DNA from: Candidatus Gastranaerophilales bacterium
Lineage (GTDB): Bacteria; Cyanobacteriota; Vampirovibrionia; Gastranaerophilales; Gastranaerophilaceae
Assembly: GCA_944323685.1 (NCBI GenBank)
Contig: CALUTJ010000001.1
Coordinates: 1 to 64,000, forward strand
DNA length: 64,000 nucleotides
Direction of reading: 5' to 3'
Part shown: piece by piece, positions 10,931 through 41,053 of the stretch
How the letters are laid out: every line of letters begins with the position of its first letter
Numbering within the stretch: the first letter of the stretch is position 1
Translations under genes and position numbers: made by a program
The notes under the pieces: model-generated
Told to the model about the DNA's origin: nothing
What the model saw: only the letters and a program-made list of their open reading frames with translations
Database searches by the model: none

Positions 10931-11254
10931 TTAGTACTTGAAGGAACGCTCAATATTTTTTTGAAGCATTTGTTCGCAAGAAGAGTATTCTGTTTCAATC
11001 ATTTGCAATTTTTGCTTGTATTGTTCCATTTTCATATCAAGCTGCTTTTCCATCACGTTTAAGCGTTCTTTGCGTGCTTCTAATTTCTTAACCAGAGGGT
11101 CATCAGCATCCAAATCGGTACCGACATTAAGTAAATCGGTACAGGTTTTAGACAAATTCATTTTTGCTTCAGTGATCAATTGTACTTTATACTCAAGGTC
11201 GAGCCTGTAAGCATTCAAATACATTAATCTAAGTTGTGCTGTTGCCATGCCCAT
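10931..11254 (-). CDS. Short MGMAxxQxR-family helical protein (needle-like)
   Basis: 107 aa, predicted almost entirely helical. The N-terminus MGMATAQLRLMYLNAYRLDLEY matches in pattern those of the genes at 12725 and 13940 (MGMAASQARYLG...EYEGQQ); shown in parts. The C-terminal coiled coil ends KNIERSFKY, matching the KNVENVFKTF and KNIEETFKTF ends of the same paralogues. It lacks their Thr/Ser-rich central domain. Start ATG 11254 is preceded by AAGGGTGG. No signal peptide or membrane segment. Function unknown; its likeness to the N/C-helix-only plan of needle subunits is an inference. Confidence 0.78.
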   Translation of the reverse strand: MGMATAQLRLMYLNAYRLDLEYKVQLITEAKMNLSKTCTDLLNVGTDLDADDPLVKKLEARKERLNVMEKQLDMKMEQYKQKLQMIETEYSSCEQMLQKNIERSFKY

Positions 11255-11278
11255 AATTGGACCACCCTTGTCTAGTTT

Positions 11279-11551
11279 TTATCGTTGCAGATTGATTTTG
11301 TTTCCCTTGAGGAAAACGTGTTCGTTGTTTTCGGCTATCAGCTGTTCCATCTGGTTCAATTTGTACATCTGGTAGTTTACTCTGTACTTCGCCATCTTCA
11401 ACTTTCGGTTCATGGTAAGGTAATCTTTAACCATTGCTGTAATCTGTGCCATAAAGATTTGCAGCGGATTATGCCTTTTGAGATAAGACATCAAGTAACC
11501 AAAGAAGTTAACTATTTTTTGCAAGTTTGTCATTAAAGCTTCTTGAAACAA
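11279..11551 (-). CDS. Small basic helical protein of the MGMA locus
   Basis: About 90 aa, rich in Lys, Met, Tyr and Gln and predicted all-helical, with an amphipathic hydrophobic N-terminal half (VNFFGYLMSYLKRHNPLQIF). I recognise no family. The start is uncertain: TTG 11551 has AAGGAG six bases upstream and is preferred; GTG 11569 and ATG 11533 are in frame. It lies 24 bp upstream of the short MGMA gene on the same strand, so the two are probably cotranscribed. Confidence 0.65.
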   Translation of the reverse strand: MFQEALMTNLQKIVNFFGYLMSYLKRHNPLQIFMAQITAMVKDYLTMNRKLKMAKYRVNYQMYKLNQMEQLIAENNEHVFLKGNKINLQR

Positions 11552-11640
11552 TGTTGACTCCTTGTCCACTTGGACCTACATAACAATAAAAACAGAACCC
11601 TGAATATTATTGCTTTATCTCTAAAAATTCTTAATAATTC

Positions 11641-11850
11641 TTAATAAATAAAGTTAATATTCGTTTCTACAGCTGCTTTAAGCAGTGCTAAGCAGCTTTT
11701 GTGTTCCTTATTATCTATCGGCATATTTTTGTGATTCTTTAGTAAATTTGAATGATAATTGAACAAATTGTAATAAAAAGTTACAATCTGTTTTAAGACG
11801 TTGCAAATTAACAGTTTATTTAAAACTGTTTTGGTTGTGGATTTAGTCAT
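11641..11850 (-). CDS. Small basic protein, unknown
   Basis: 69 aa from ATG 11850, which has AAGGGG six bases upstream; a longer in-frame reading would run into the gene upstream. Lys/Asn/Leu-rich with a hydrophobic aromatic stretch in the middle (QIVTFYYNLFNYHSNLL) and a cysteine near the end. No recognised domain. It begins 17 bp after the glycine-rich protein and may belong to the same transcript. Support is the ribosome site and position only. Confidence 0.45.
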   Translation of the reverse strand: MTKSTTKTVLNKLLICNVLKQIVTFYYNLFNYHSNLLKNHKNMPIDNKEHKSCLALLKAAVETNINFIY

Positions 11851-11866
11851 ATTGCCCCTTAAATAA

Positions 11867-12694
11867 CTACATATTTTGAACTTGTTTGCTGTTGCTTTCG
11901 ATATCGTCTTTAAGCATCTTTTTAACGATATCGCCCTGTGTATCAAGCATTTTTACAACAGTTTCAATGTTTCTTACCTTATTTGAAAGTATAGTATCAG
12001 CATTAGATAATATGCTGCCGGAAATATTTTGGTATGCAGCAAGACCGGCCGATGAGGTACCTTGCAGCAAGTTGCCTAATACTGTGGCTCCAAGACCAAA
12101 ACCTCCCATATAAGGAGCCATTGCCTGAACAACACCTGCAAAACCGGAAACTATACCGGCTGTCGGTAATACCCAGCTTGTTCCGGGAACACCGAATCCT
12201 GATGCGACGCCTGCTCCGTATGCGGCAGCATTAAGACCAACGGAACCGCCTATACTGCTTGCGGAATATAAGCCGGACGCACCGCCGGTTATTGTTCCGT
12301 CACTGTAGCTTGTATCCATTCCAAAGCCCCATGCTATCGGCGCAGCACCGCTCGGGAAACCTGGGTAGTTACCTAAGTCAGTAATACCAAAAGCCGCGCT
12401 GCCGCTGTCTAAAATGGAGTTGCCGCCGCTAATCGGCGACCAGTAAGAAGTACCGGGAATGTTCATTGTTGTATTGCCGCCCATAATCGGCATGAAAGCA
12501 CTTGGTGAAATCAATCTTGCAATCTGCCATAAAAAGCTGCCTGCTGTACCAAACCCTGCGCCGTCAAGTGCTGAACCGCTAACAGTTAAATCTCTTAATC
12601 TGTCGTAAGTTTCAAATAACTGTGCTTTAGCGTCTGAGCTTGCTTTGCCGAATTTGTTTGCTATTACAAGATATCCGTCATTTTTATAAGACAT
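11867..12694 (-). CDS. Glycine-rich hydrophobic protein of the MGMA locus
   Basis: 275 aa. Residues 45-215 are unusually rich in Gly, Ala, Ser and Pro with repeated small-residue stretches (GGASGLYSASSIGGSVGLNA, VPGTSWVLPTAGIVSGF), which could be membrane-inserting or a flexible surface structure. The C-terminal 50 residues form an amphipathic helix (NKVRNIETVVKMLDTQGDIV, then KKMLKDDIES). There is no classical signal peptide. The ATG is preceded by GAGGG. It lies 30 bp downstream of the first long MGMA paralogue. I do not recognise the family. Confidence 0.72.
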   Translation of the reverse strand: MSYKNDGYLVIANKFGKASSDAKAQLFETYDRLRDLTVSGSALDGAGFGTAGSFLWQIARLISPSAFMPIMGGNTTMNIPGTSYWSPISGGNSILDSGSAAFGITDLGNYPGFPSGAAPIAWGFGMDTSYSDGTITGGASGLYSASSIGGSVGLNAAAYGAGVASGFGVPGTSWVLPTAGIVSGFAGVVQAMAPYMGGFGLGATVLGNLLQGTSSAGLAAYQNISGSILSNADTILSNKVRNIETVVKMLDTQGDIVKKMLKDDIESNSKQVQNM

Positions 12695-12724
12695 AGTGCC
12701 CTCACATATTTTCTAATCATTTAA

Positions 12725-13702
12725 TTATTGAAATGTCTTAAATACATTTTCAACGTTTTTATCAATAACTTTCTTAACCGAATCAAGTTCTGTTTGCAAA
12801 GCTTCCTGCTCTGTATCAAGCTGTTTCAATCTCAATTCAAGAGTTCTGTCAGTTTCTTGCAGCTCTTCTGTTTTTGCGTTGATATCGGCTACTTCTTTTT
12901 CATAATTTGCTTTGTCTACATTGTATTGATCCATTGCGTCATCATAGGCCTGTTCATCATATTCACGACCTACTGAAAGTTTATAATCATACTGGTAACC
13001 GTCTTCATCAGTCCAGCTTATATTGTTATATAAACCAGATGATGACGTACCTACAGTTGCATTTTCGATAGTTTTTGTTGACTCCTGCTGCACGGTCATA
13101 ACGCTTAATAAATCAACATTCTGACTGCCTGCTGTTTTGGGGTCAAAACCTGTTTTTGTTGCATTTATGTAGTATGTTGTTTTATTCACTGAATTTGTGA
13201 ATGTGTAATATGTATCAGTTGTTTCGTTTTGATATGTAATATTCGGGTTTTTATTGAATTCATCTATCATATATTCGGGTAAATCGGTAAGACTGTTAGA
13301 TAAATCGTAGTTATTACCGTTTTCTAAATATATTTTGTTTCCGCTGGAAGAACCGTTTACATAAACTGACTGATTTGATGCAACATTATATTGCGGAACA
13401 TCTTCATTATATTTAGTGATAACTGTATAAGTCTGCGGATCTGAACCTGCATTAGGGGTTATAGATGTAACCGTAACTTTGCCGTCAGATGTAGTCGGGT
13501 CATCATACTGATAAACATCAGTATAGTACTCGGATTGTGTAGGCGGTGTTGGAACCGTTAACCCTAACAATCTTCTGAACAAACCTGCGCTTTCATTAGC
13601 CAGCGCTGTTCTTTGCTGGTTAACCTGCTGTCCTTCGTACTCAACATTTATTTTTCTGGCTGTGATACCTAAATATCTAGCCTGTGATGCTGCCATGCCC
13701 AT
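12725..13702 (-). CDS. Long MGMAxxQxR-family protein, flagellin-like layout (paralogue A)
   Basis: 325 aa in three parts: a conserved N-terminal helix region (1-45, MGMAASQARYLGITARKINV), a variable, probably beta-rich, Thr/Ser/Asn/Tyr-rich centre (about 50-245) and a conserved C-terminal coiled coil (about 255-325, ending DSVKKVIDKNVENVFKTFQ). The N- and C-parts are nearly identical to those of the next gene upstream (13940-14950), while the centres differ. Conserved helical ends with a divergent middle is the design of flagellin and hook proteins, but there is no flagellin motif and no flagellar gene nearby. No signal peptide. Start ATG has GGAGA ten bases upstream. Confidence 0.8.
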   Translation of the reverse strand: MGMAASQARYLGITARKINVEYEGQQVNQQRTALANESAGLFRRLLGLTVPTPPTQSEYYTDVYQYDDPTTSDGKVTVTSITPNAGSDPQTYTVITKYNEDVPQYNVASNQSVYVNGSSSGNKIYLENGNNYDLSNSLTDLPEYMIDEFNKNPNITYQNETTDTYYTFTNSVNKTTYYINATKTGFDPKTAGSQNVDLLSVMTVQQESTKTIENATVGTSSSGLYNNISWTDEDGYQYDYKLSVGREYDEQAYDDAMDQYNVDKANYEKEVADINAKTEELQETDRTLELRLKQLDTEQEALQTELDSVKKVIDKNVENVFKTFQ

Positions 13703-13939
13703 ATTCTTTTGTCTCCGTTCTTAACTTACTAACCATTAAAATTTAATTATCTTTCTTGAATTGTCACATTATGCACATCATATGTTAAGAATTATTACTC
13801 TCATTATAAATGTTCGTGTGCCAATTTTTAAAGCCTCTTAAAAGAAAAATCCTCTGTTTGATGTACTCCTTTTTAAAATAAATACCGGCCTTCTAATTTT
13901 CAAGCAGACTATTAAAAAGCCGGTTTAAAAATTGGAGTA

Positions 13940-14950
13940 TTATGCAAATGTTTTGAATGTTTCTTCTATGTTTTTATCAATTACCTTTTTAACTGCGTCT
14001 AATTCGGTTTGAATTGCCTGTTGTTCAGTGTCTAACTGGTCTAAGTGCAATTCAAGGTTTTTATCCTGTTGTTGGATAATTTCAGTTTGAGAGTTGATAT
14101 CAGCAATAGCTTTATCATAGATTGCTTTTTCAGCGTTGTATGTTTCCATTGCTGCATCGTAAGCTTCATCATCCTGAGTTGTTTGTTGTGTGAGTGAACA
14201 AGTAACAACGTCACCGTTTTCATTTGTGAAGGTTACTGATTTATATCTGCCTGTTCCGTCGCCTGCTGGTTCAAGAACTGCATCATTATAAGTTTTGTAA
14301 TCATTTTTAGCGATACCTTCGGCAGAATATAAAGAAAGTGTTGCACCTCTTGCCATAAGTTCTTCAAATGTCTCGTCTTCGCTTACTGCGGGGATGTAGT
14401 ATTCAACACCGCCGTCTGTAAACTTGAAGAAGTATGTATCTTCAGTGATGTTGTCTACATTGTTTTCGTCAGCTTCTTGGAATTTTGCTGTCAAAGCTGA
14501 ATATTTTTGAGGTTCGACAAGAGTGTGAGCACTGTTGTGACCGATTTGAATTGTATAAGTGTCATCATCGCCTTTTGCAATAGTGTATCTGTCTGAACCG
14601 GTACCTGTATTAACAATTTCCGTTCTGTTAGAAAGAATATCAGTAGTTGATCTGTATGTTGAAATTGTATAGTGATAGTCTCCGTTTTCGTCCGGTGTAG
14701 GATTTTTGTGAATACTGTCGATTGTATATTTCTGGCTTGTAGAATTATCAGTGAAAACATATTCTGTTTTTGTATAATCCGTTGCAGCCGGAGGAGTCGG
14801 CACGTGAAGTGACAACATCTGATTGAACAGGCCTGCGCTCTGGTTAGCCAGTGCGGTTCTTTCCTGGTTAACTTGTTGACCTTCGTATTCAACGTTAGTT
14901 TTTCTTGCTGTTAAGCCGAGGTATCTGGCTTGTGATGCTGCCATTCCCAT
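13940..14950 (-). CDS. Long MGMAxxQxR-family protein, flagellin-like layout (paralogue B)
   Basis: 336 aa, paralogue of the preceding entry. The first 60 residues keep MGMAASQARYLGLTARKTNV and then EYEGQQVNQERTALANQSAG, followed by the same VPTPP hinge at about residue 50; the last 75 residues keep the coiled coil (LDQLDTEQQAIQTELDAVKK, VIDKNIEETFKTF). The centre (60-255) has no clear likeness to paralogue A and is rich in Thr, Asp and Tyr. Start ATG has AGGAG upstream. 237 bases separate it from paralogue A, so each may have its own promoter. Function unknown. Confidence 0.8.
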   Translation of the reverse strand: MGMAASQARYLGLTARKTNVEYEGQQVNQERTALANQSAGLFNQMLSLHVPTPPAATDYTKTEYVFTDNSTSQKYTIDSIHKNPTPDENGDYHYTISTYRSTTDILSNRTEIVNTGTGSDRYTIAKGDDDTYTIQIGHNSAHTLVEPQKYSALTAKFQEADENNVDNITEDTYFFKFTDGGVEYYIPAVSEDETFEELMARGATLSLYSAEGIAKNDYKTYNDAVLEPAGDGTGRYKSVTFTNENGDVVTCSLTQQTTQDDEAYDAAMETYNAEKAIYDKAIADINSQTEIIQQQDKNLELHLDQLDTEQQAIQTELDAVKKVIDKNIEETFKTFA

Positions 14951-15135
14951 TGCTAATACTCCTTATTGTTTTTTAATTTGCATATCTGTTATATTAATCG
15001 GCACACTTTTACAAAAACTTTAGTAATTTTAGTTATAATGTTACAAAAAGTTTACAATTTAGCTAAAAATGCACTGTACTAACCTTTTTAGTCTTTAATA
15101 ATTTAAATTAAAAAGTCAATTTTAGATAAGAAACA

Positions 15136-18223: not shown

Positions 18224-19042
18224 TTAATCGCTGAGTGCTTCAAACAGATTTTTTTTCGCTCTGAGAAGCACAAGCTCGGATTGTATGCGTTTTCTTTCTT
18301 CTCTTGTTAAATCGTCACGTTTAAGCTTTGTTTCATTTTCTTTAAGGTCTTTATCCGCTTTATCTGCCTGAGTCTGCATTGTTGCTGCGGCATTTGAGCC
18401 AAACAGTGTTTTGCCGTTTTTATCAATTATGTCATACATTTCTGTTTTATTTTGAGCATCTGACAAATCAGACGGCTTTGTATTAACCATAGAAAGCATC
18501 TGTTTAAGCATATTTGTAAACTCACTGACATTGAAGCCGGTACCCTTCAATGCAGCAACTGTTGAAGAAAGACTTACCATAGTTTCTGAAATCAAAAACA
18601 GCTCTGTCACTTTAGCTGTCGCTTCATATGCTGATGCTTTTATTTTATCTTCTATTTTTTTTATTCTTGATTCTTTTTCGGAGTCACTCAGATACGGATT
18701 ATTCATTATCATTGCTATTTCTGATATATAACCGCTTATTGTTGACTTTAATGAACTGATAATTGCATTTGCTTTTGACGATGCGCTTAATGCTACGGAG
18801 GTAAGCTCATTGGCGCTGAGTTTGCTTAATATATCTGTATTGTTAATCATTTTATCGGCAAGATCCATTGCCGGTGCAAGCTCGGTGATATACTTAGATG
18901 TCAATTTGTCTGTTGTACTTTCAAATTCAGTTACTTGATTGAGTTCTAACAGATTGCTATCCTGTGTTTTGTTAACTGTAGATGTTTCTTTGCTTTGATT
19001 AACTTTAATGTTAATACCCGTGTTAAAAATGGCAACGTACAT
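18224..19042 (-). CDS. Helical/coiled-coil protein of unknown function
   Basis: 272 aa, predicted mostly alpha-helical with a charged C-terminal coiled coil (ADKADKDLKENETKLKRDDL then TREERKRIQSEL). Residues 65-190 are Ser/Ala/Leu/Met-rich helices (TSVALSASSKANAIISSLKS, ELFLISETMVSLSSTVAALK) of a kind found in secreted translocator or spacer proteins, but there is no signal peptide. No family recognised. Convergent with the 16769 gene (15 bp between stops). Confidence 0.68.
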   Translation of the reverse strand: MYVAIFNTGINIKVNQSKETSTVNKTQDSNLLELNQVTEFESTTDKLTSKYITELAPAMDLADKMINNTDILSKLSANELTSVALSASSKANAIISSLKSTISGYISEIAMIMNNPYLSDSEKESRIKKIEDKIKASAYEATAKVTELFLISETMVSLSSTVAALKGTGFNVSEFTNMLKQMLSMVNTKPSDLSDAQNKTEMYDIIDKNGKTLFGSNAAATMQTQADKADKDLKENETKLKRDDLTREERKRIQSELVLLRAKKNLFEALSD

Positions 19043-19129
19043 AAATTCACCCCTGAATAAATTAATGTGTGATTAATTTATCGGAATAAATTACATAAAA
19101 CTTTAATATTTAAAGAAATTAAATTAACA

Positions 19130-40747: not shown

Positions 40748-41053
40748 ATGACTATAGGGGCTATTAACACAAGATTATTGTCTTTGACGTTGTACAAAAG
40801 CAACCTTGAGTACAGCATCACTTCTATCAGCAACAAAAGACAGCAGATAGCATATCAAACAATGCAATTGTCTGATGTAGATTGGGAAAGCGATCCCAGA
40901 GTACAGCAGTTGCAGGCAATGGATTCTTATCTTGAATTGCAGCAAAAGAACTTGGAAACTCAACAAAAAGCAGCTGCATCCGAGTTGGAAAGCATGCAGA
41001 AAATATTGGATACTAACGTTAAGAAAGACTTTACGTTGAACTTGAATGCATAA
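40748..41053 (+). CDS. Short MGMA-family-like helical protein (fourth paralogue)
   Basis: 101 aa, all-helical by composition. N-terminus MTIGAINTRLLSLTLYKSNL then EYSITSI follows the pattern of MGMAxxQxRxLxLxAxKxxxEY. It has the same DPxVxxLxxxDxxLE...LE linker-and-coil as the 107-aa gene at 10931 and ends KILDTNVKKDF, like KxxIDKNxExxFK. Strong ribosome site (AAGGAG) before ATG 40748. Alone, on the opposite strand from the main locus. Function unknown. Confidence 0.7.
   Translation: MTIGAINTRLLSLTLYKSNLEYSITSISNKRQQIAYQTMQLSDVDWESDPRVQQLQAMDSYLELQQKNLETQQKAAASELESMQKILDTNVKKDFTLNLNA

Follow-up and report, generated by a model that had tools for sequence, protein, structure and literature searches.

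In other bacteria, late flagellar genes such as those for flagellins are transcribed from sigma28-type promoters, and flagellins and hook-associated proteins (FliC, PF00669/PF00700; FlgL; FlgK; FliD) combine conserved terminal helices with a variable middle. In Melainabacteria, partial flagellar gene sets have been attributed to genome reduction or to the loss of a functional flagellum (Di Rienzi 2013, PMC3787301; Soo 2014, PMC4040986); FlhB is among the genes common to four Melainabacteria genomes, and MEL.A1 was reported to be without filament, cap, junction, and L and P rings (Di Rienzi, PMC3787301). Beyond such partial flagellar sets, no type III system is mentioned in the literature consulted on Gastranaerophilales. 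Here we analyze a stretch of 64,000 nucleotides (hereafter the window) of contig 1 of G000, a 2.3-Mb genome of Candidatus Gastranaerophilales, which carries a cassette encoding proteins of a family that we call MG together with a glycine-rich protein of 275 amino acids (Gly275). Gastranaerophilales almost universally possess a second flagellar-type export apparatus (system 2), and we consider it likely that the MG proteins are its late substrates or flagellin-like axial subunits.

MG proteins resemble flagellins and hook-associated proteins in their conserved terminal helices, their variable middle, a predicted D0/D1-like pairing of the helices, a sigma28-type promoter, and the apparent lack of a signal peptide. 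Unlike them, they have no detectable sequence homology or Pfam match to these families, include forms of about 107 amino acids that consist of the ends only, are linked to a Gly-rich partner, and also occur where flagellin is missing. Injectisome needle and filament subunits (SctF; EspA-type) share the terminal-helix logic, and the short MG proteins are close to small needle or inner-rod proteins in size; however, the MG proteins scanned gave no needle-family match, and system 2 has FlgB, FlgC, and FliE, which were treated as flagellum-specific by Abby and Rocha (2012, PMC3459982). The partial Melainabacteria set (flgG, flgC, fliF, fliH, flhA, fliI, fliP, fliQ, fliR, flhB) corresponds to system 2. 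In contrast to the earlier reading as loss, system 2 is a separate, near-universal set of loci with its own FlhA and FliP, and with a phyletic boundary in common with MG and Gly275. A further parallel is Buchnera, whose filament-less flagellar basal bodies retain the export gate without flagellin (PMC8109811); system 2 likewise keeps a basal body and export gate in genomes without flagellin. The Buchnera case, however, is a recent reduction in one symbiont, and no new substrate family is known from that source.

The cassette and its putative promoters comprise the following features:
13940..14950, minus strand: MG-family protein A, 336 amino acids, with predicted helix 3-47, beta-rich middle, and helix 261-335 in a flagellin-like topology.
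14996..15022, minus strand: sigma28 (FliA)-like promoter TAAAGTTTTTGTAAAAGTGTGCCGATT, kept in the genus; the start codon (ATG) of A follows after about 46 bp.
12725..13702, minus strand: MG-family protein B, 325 amino acids, the cassette copy adjoining the Gly-rich gene, without a sigma28-like site.
11867..12694, minus strand: Gly275, with helical ends and a hydrophobic Gly-rich center; it belongs to no known family and occurs once in almost every genome of the GTDB family.
11716..11741, minus strand: sigma28-like promoter TAAAGAATCACAAAAATATGCCGATA, within the 69-amino-acid open reading frame (ORF) and some 165 bp ahead of the gene for the 90-amino-acid protein.
11641..11850, minus strand: ORF of 69 amino acids, kept within the genus and near relatives, overlapping both a conserved inverted repeat (ATTGTAA-n7-TTACAAT) and the next unit's sigma28-like site.
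11279..11551, minus strand: H90, a helical, basic (isoelectric point 9.8) and almost always Cys-free protein of about 90 amino acids, whose gene is the conserved upstream neighbor of the short MG gene.
10931..11254, minus strand: short MG protein, 107 amino acids, two ends only; such a form (109 amino acids) occurs in the deepest branch.

An earlier note made from the sequence of the window had listed these ORFs, and every one is present at its coordinates, all on the minus strand. The note described two long paralogs with nearly identical ends, which is borne out by identities between A and B of 82% over residues 1-55 and 63% over the last 76, compared with 21% in the middle; the 107-amino-acid relative does consist of the ends alone. 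Its description of the centers as unrelated captured their divergence but was slightly too strong, because the middles align 6.3 standard deviations above shuffled sequence and look like very divergent homologs. A simple hydropathy scan revealed no hydrophobic N-terminal (Sec-like) segment, in agreement with the claim that signal peptides are absent.

None of the cassette proteins matched Pfam or NCBIfam above curated cut-offs. When 51 long MG members were scanned singly against Pfam, no flagellin profile (PF00669, PF00700) was found at E up to 1, and only weak matches were obtained, all to generic coiled coils. Needle families (SctF type) matched neither these members nor one short MG protein in the Pfam scans, and a sequence profile search of PDB returned nothing meaningful. 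Placement in a known cytoplasmic family had been proposed as a test of the idea, and the profile searches gave no such placement. On sequence grounds, MG is a hitherto undescribed protein family and not a member of the flagellin family. Its composition is poor in Cys (0.45% vs. 0.98%), Trp, and His, and rich in Thr, Gln, and Tyr.

An AlphaFold2 model of A, built from an alignment of 51 sequences, has a mean predicted local distance difference test (pLDDT) score of 88.7 and consists of the N-terminal helix, the beta-rich middle, and the long C-terminal helix. The best Foldseek match was a flagellin (4nx9, E 0.0047). In a second look with another structural aligner, the seven best-ranked chains (Z 8.6-9.0) came from the flagellar filament, cap, or junction, and flagellar axial proteins (flagellin, FlgL/HAP3, FliD, hook, rod) made up 29 of the top 34 rows. 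These alignments cover both ends of the protein, for example 109 residues at 1.7 Å for 8sug_A; FlgL (5yti) aligns over 120 residues at 2.5 Å with 18% identity. In the model, the N- and C-terminal helices form a core around the variable middle as in flagellins, and the terminal-helix pairing that the note had set as a test is seen in the prediction, with alignments to flagellins spanning both ends. MG proteins are flagellin-like in prediction, with no membership by sequence.

The site before A reads TAAAGTTT-n12-GCCGATTA, close to the Escherichia coli sigma28 consensus TAAAGTTT-n11-GCCGATAA (PMC2859248). In many genomes, a similar site was detected about 150-175 bp upstream of the H90 unit. Of 104 long MG genes, 19 have a strict form of the site within 90 bp, compared with 5 of 897 other genes. 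Using a relaxed form and the same distance, we found it at 13 of 15 non-cassette MG genes and 5 of 179 others in flagellin-bearing genomes (P = 1e-14), and at 9 of 23 and 3 of 484, respectively, in genomes without flagellin (P = 3e-11). Because the motif was first noticed in the window sequence and then counted, a second set of newly fetched named loci, largely independent although its species partly overlap with those of the first, provides the fairer test: the relaxed site was found at 26/31 non-cassette MG genes and 5/148 other genes, with scrambled -10 controls giving 0.75/31. The cassette MG copy is mostly without a site in the first set (8/49, relaxed form); in the second set 32/72 copies have one, largely in single-MG or duplicated arrangements. 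With the relaxed pattern, a related element (TAAAGTAT..TCGATA) was detected at 8 of 20 flagellin genes from these genomes. It is the promoter motif that points to late, sigma28-dependent expression of MG genes.

FlhA-family genes were detected in 96 of the 97 genomes of the GTDB family and fall into two types. The FlhA1 type (~870 bits) occurs in 41 genomes, all of them flagellin-bearing (PF00669 in 42/97), and belongs to the ordinary flagellum. FlhA2 (~720 bits; 37% identical to FlhA1) is present in 91 of the 97, including 52 of the 55 with no PF00669 match. Its operon has the order FliF-FliG-FliH-FlhA, followed in some genomes, including that of the window, by FliI. Non-flagellated genomes have one FliP copy and flagellated genomes as a rule two; the second FliP operon is FliMN-FliO-FliP-FliQ-122-amino-acid protein-FliR. 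In other families of the order, the arrangement is FlgF-FlgG-FlgB-FlgC-lytic transglycosylase-FliE-FliF-FliG-FliH-FlhA(-FliI). Pfam identified FliF, FliH, FliI, FliMN, FliO, FliP, FliQ, FliR, FliE, and FlgB/C/G among the parts of system 2; together with FlhA2, the export apparatus (FlhA, FliP, FliQ, FliR, FliF, FliH, FliI) is represented. The rod proteins FlgB, FlgC, FliE, and FlgF/FlgG were also found (L094, L197-L199, L204), although the system 2 rod genes of the window's own genome were not located; an injectisome would be expected to lack FlgB, FlgC, and FliE, whereas system 2 carries rod proteins and FliE. MG proteins are probably exported by system 2, a conserved second flagellum-like machine that had been taken for what is left of a lost flagellum.

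The distribution of the cassette genes parallels that of system 2. MG genes are present in 97/97 genomes of the family and the Gly-rich gene in 93/97 (81/83 of good quality), as a single copy in nearly all; given these figures, the locus is more than a chance association. Gly275 was found in 50 of the 55 genomes without flagellin. A genome may have up to 28 MG matches (N- and C-end matches counted apart) at scattered loci. Across a sample of the phylum, Gly275 is confined to families f1, f2, f3, and f5, and FlhA2 orthologs (64-100% identity) and MG have the same boundary (27 genomes tested). Neither MG nor Gly275 was detected in f4 and f6, where FlhA is ≤48% identical, nor in the rest of the phylum tested, with FlhA at most 48% identical. 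G375, which belongs to another family of the same class and is the most distant genome in which MG occurs, retains the MG-Gly275 pair; its MG proteins are all about 109 amino acids long. An MG gene lies near FliI2 in L217, and in L208, from a deep branch, one adjoins a FlgB-FlgC-FliE-FliF-FliG cluster. FlhA2 and Gly275 are both missing from G045, G271, and G405, with G068 and G397 as exceptions; such co-loss is suggestive only, because the ends of MG genes coincide with contig edges, and genes may seem absent owing to gaps in the assembly. The earlier note is therefore partly supported as a whole: its flagellin, hook, or needle logic was right and is backed by three independent lines of evidence (the predicted fold and structural neighbors, the sigma28-type promoters, and the phyletic boundary shared with the export apparatus), whereas the promoters and the apparatus elsewhere in the genome had gone unnoticed.

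From these data we infer that MG proteins would be exported in unfolded form through FlhA2-FliPQR, by system 2 and not the ordinary flagellum, and would assemble outside the cell. The conserved N- and C-terminal helices may pack as in flagellin D0/D1 or in the rod, forming a packing and export core, with the variable beta-rich middle facing outwards; the short forms (107-109 amino acids) would be core only. The extra MG genes and the H90-short-MG unit would be transcribed from the sigma28-type promoters. The cassette MG copy mostly lacks such a promoter and may therefore follow another expression schedule: an assembly order is conceivable in which the cassette pair is expressed early and further MG genes late via the sigma28 type, as in the flagellar checkpoint logic. 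Gly275 might serve as a cap, tip, anchor, or membrane-contacting partner; its AlphaFold2 model is unusable (pLDDT 42), and for this reason we make no claim about its fold. Classical export chaperones are acidic, so the basic H90 is probably not one of them.

Several observations weigh against MG proteins being subunits or substrates of system 2. The predicted template modeling score of the A model is only 0.54, and Foldseek gave no match to it below E 0.001, with low template modeling scores. A Z of about 9 is attainable by unrelated two-helix proteins, as the aligner's own note states; since such values can come from common arrangements, it is the specificity of the list, not Z, that carries the fold argument. 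The MG sequences scanned against Pfam matched no family of flagellin, hook, rod, or needle proteins, and Cys-poverty does not extend to the short MG proteins. Three genomes in which no FlhA2 was found (G045, G271, and G405) still have MG genes; in two of them the only other FlhA sequences are partial relatives. In 15 of 87 genomes, from 7 genera, the distance between the cassette and FlhA2 is 8-13 kb; this linkage speaks for system 2 but is weak, because the linked genomes fall in one clade of the FlhA2 tree with losses, and one gain plus several losses in a single f1 clade would fit. MG genes near FliP2 operons (L153, L162) were not used as evidence of linkage, as their number is about that expected from density alone.

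A flagellin-like fold and sigma28-type promoters would also be expected if MG proteins were parts or substrates of the ordinary flagellum, such as alternative flagellins or filament decorations, that linger after its loss, and one deep-branch MG gene is in fact flanked by a FliD-like gene on one side and a flagellar FlgB-FliG cluster on the other. Decay would not, however, predict many copies of MG retained along with Gly275 where flagellin and FlhA1 are gone, and we regard this explanation as unlikely. An equally unlikely one is that MG proteins are type III-like effectors or adhesins that do not polymerize, the ends serving as export or chaperone-binding modules and the middles acting on the host or other bacteria. 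The number of matches, their scattered loci, and the highly variable middles of up to several hundred residues agree with this; on the other hand, ends-only forms exist, and both termini, not an N-terminal signal alone, are conserved and match axial D0/D1 helices. The N-terminal export signals of effectors are usually less conserved than the MG ends.

It is still less probable that MG proteins are cytoplasmic coiled-coil scaffolds with no role in export, in which the structural matches are generic two-helix matches and the promoter reflects co-regulation only. The closeness of Z to the values of unrelated helical models and the coiled-coil character of the Pfam matches are in line with such scaffolds, yet the best structural matches are to flagellar axial proteins in particular and not to a mixture of coiled coils; the sigma28-type promoters and the Cys/Trp/His-poor, Thr/Gln/Tyr-rich composition also argue against them.

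If export of MG proteins by system 2 is correct, a widespread group of animal-gut bacteria has a machine for secretion or at the cell surface that has gone unrecognized, and what has been annotated as a decaying flagellum is a retained, working apparatus. Flagellar evolution would then have led to a third result in addition to motility and injection, and the system would offer a natural test of the origin of flagellin-type subunits, with ends-only forms in the deepest branch and middles inserted later. Tentatively, and with considerable doubt, we can picture a second, non-motility flagellar machine with an exterior of flagellin-like subunits bearing interchangeable variable middles, a Gly-rich cap or anchor, and a sigma28 checkpoint, as a third appendage of the flagellar lineage beside flagellum and injectisome. 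The Gly-rich gene, FlhA2, the MG genes, and the sigma28 promoter could serve as markers in transcriptomes and proteomes.

Across the family, the cassette order is MG protein, Gly-rich protein, 90-amino-acid protein, and short MG protein, the last two being missing in some genera. Relatives of the Gly-rich protein with up to 97% identity come from Gastranaerophilales when named and otherwise from gut metagenome bins. H90 starts at a TTG behind AAGGAG, whereas the 96-amino-acid ORF of the original list starts at an upstream GTG. Beyond the window, G000 has at least two more MG relatives (224 and 131 amino acids); within it, a further sequence relative was found:
40748..41053, plus strand: divergent short MG relative, 101 amino acids.

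A conserved "TEGVGK" coiled-coil protein adjoins the cassette in many genomes (L075 5732-6367; L164 5877-6587); in the window's own genome it is encoded beside fliJ-, fliK-, flgD-, and flgE-like genes. Conserved TTGTAA repeats lie at about 11740-11790 and 15040-15070 of the window, as the inverted ATTGTAA-n7-TTACAAT before the H90 unit and as a direct pair before A, and might be an operator common to both. At 18224-19042 (minus strand), a 272-amino-acid helical, Cys-free protein has a sigma28-like site (TAAAGTTTTATGTAATTTATTCCGATA, 19079-19105) 36 bp upstream and is a candidate co-regulated substrate. An HD-GYP-type gene upstream of the FliF2 operon (L048 1858-3114) has a strict sigma28-like promoter.

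The 122-amino-acid secreted protein between fliQ and fliR of system 2 (L150 8197-8565) has a weak, sub-threshold T2SS-T3SS_pil_N match and is a possible outer-ring or secretin-like partner. ExbB/ExbD-like genes occur near the second FliP operon in several genomes (L151, L158, L159). Beside a PSP1 gene, contig 22 of G000 encodes a stand-alone FlhA C-domain protein of 487 amino acids with no membrane part (L049 3319-4782), and similar partial FHIPEP matches were found in many relatives. An apparent FlhA2 remnant in G045 was rejected as decayed FlhA2, being another partial FlhA-like ORF. Several proteins of unknown function (window 60782; L048 3963 and 15717) have in common a short N-terminal FKG/FxG motif, which is a possible sorting signal.

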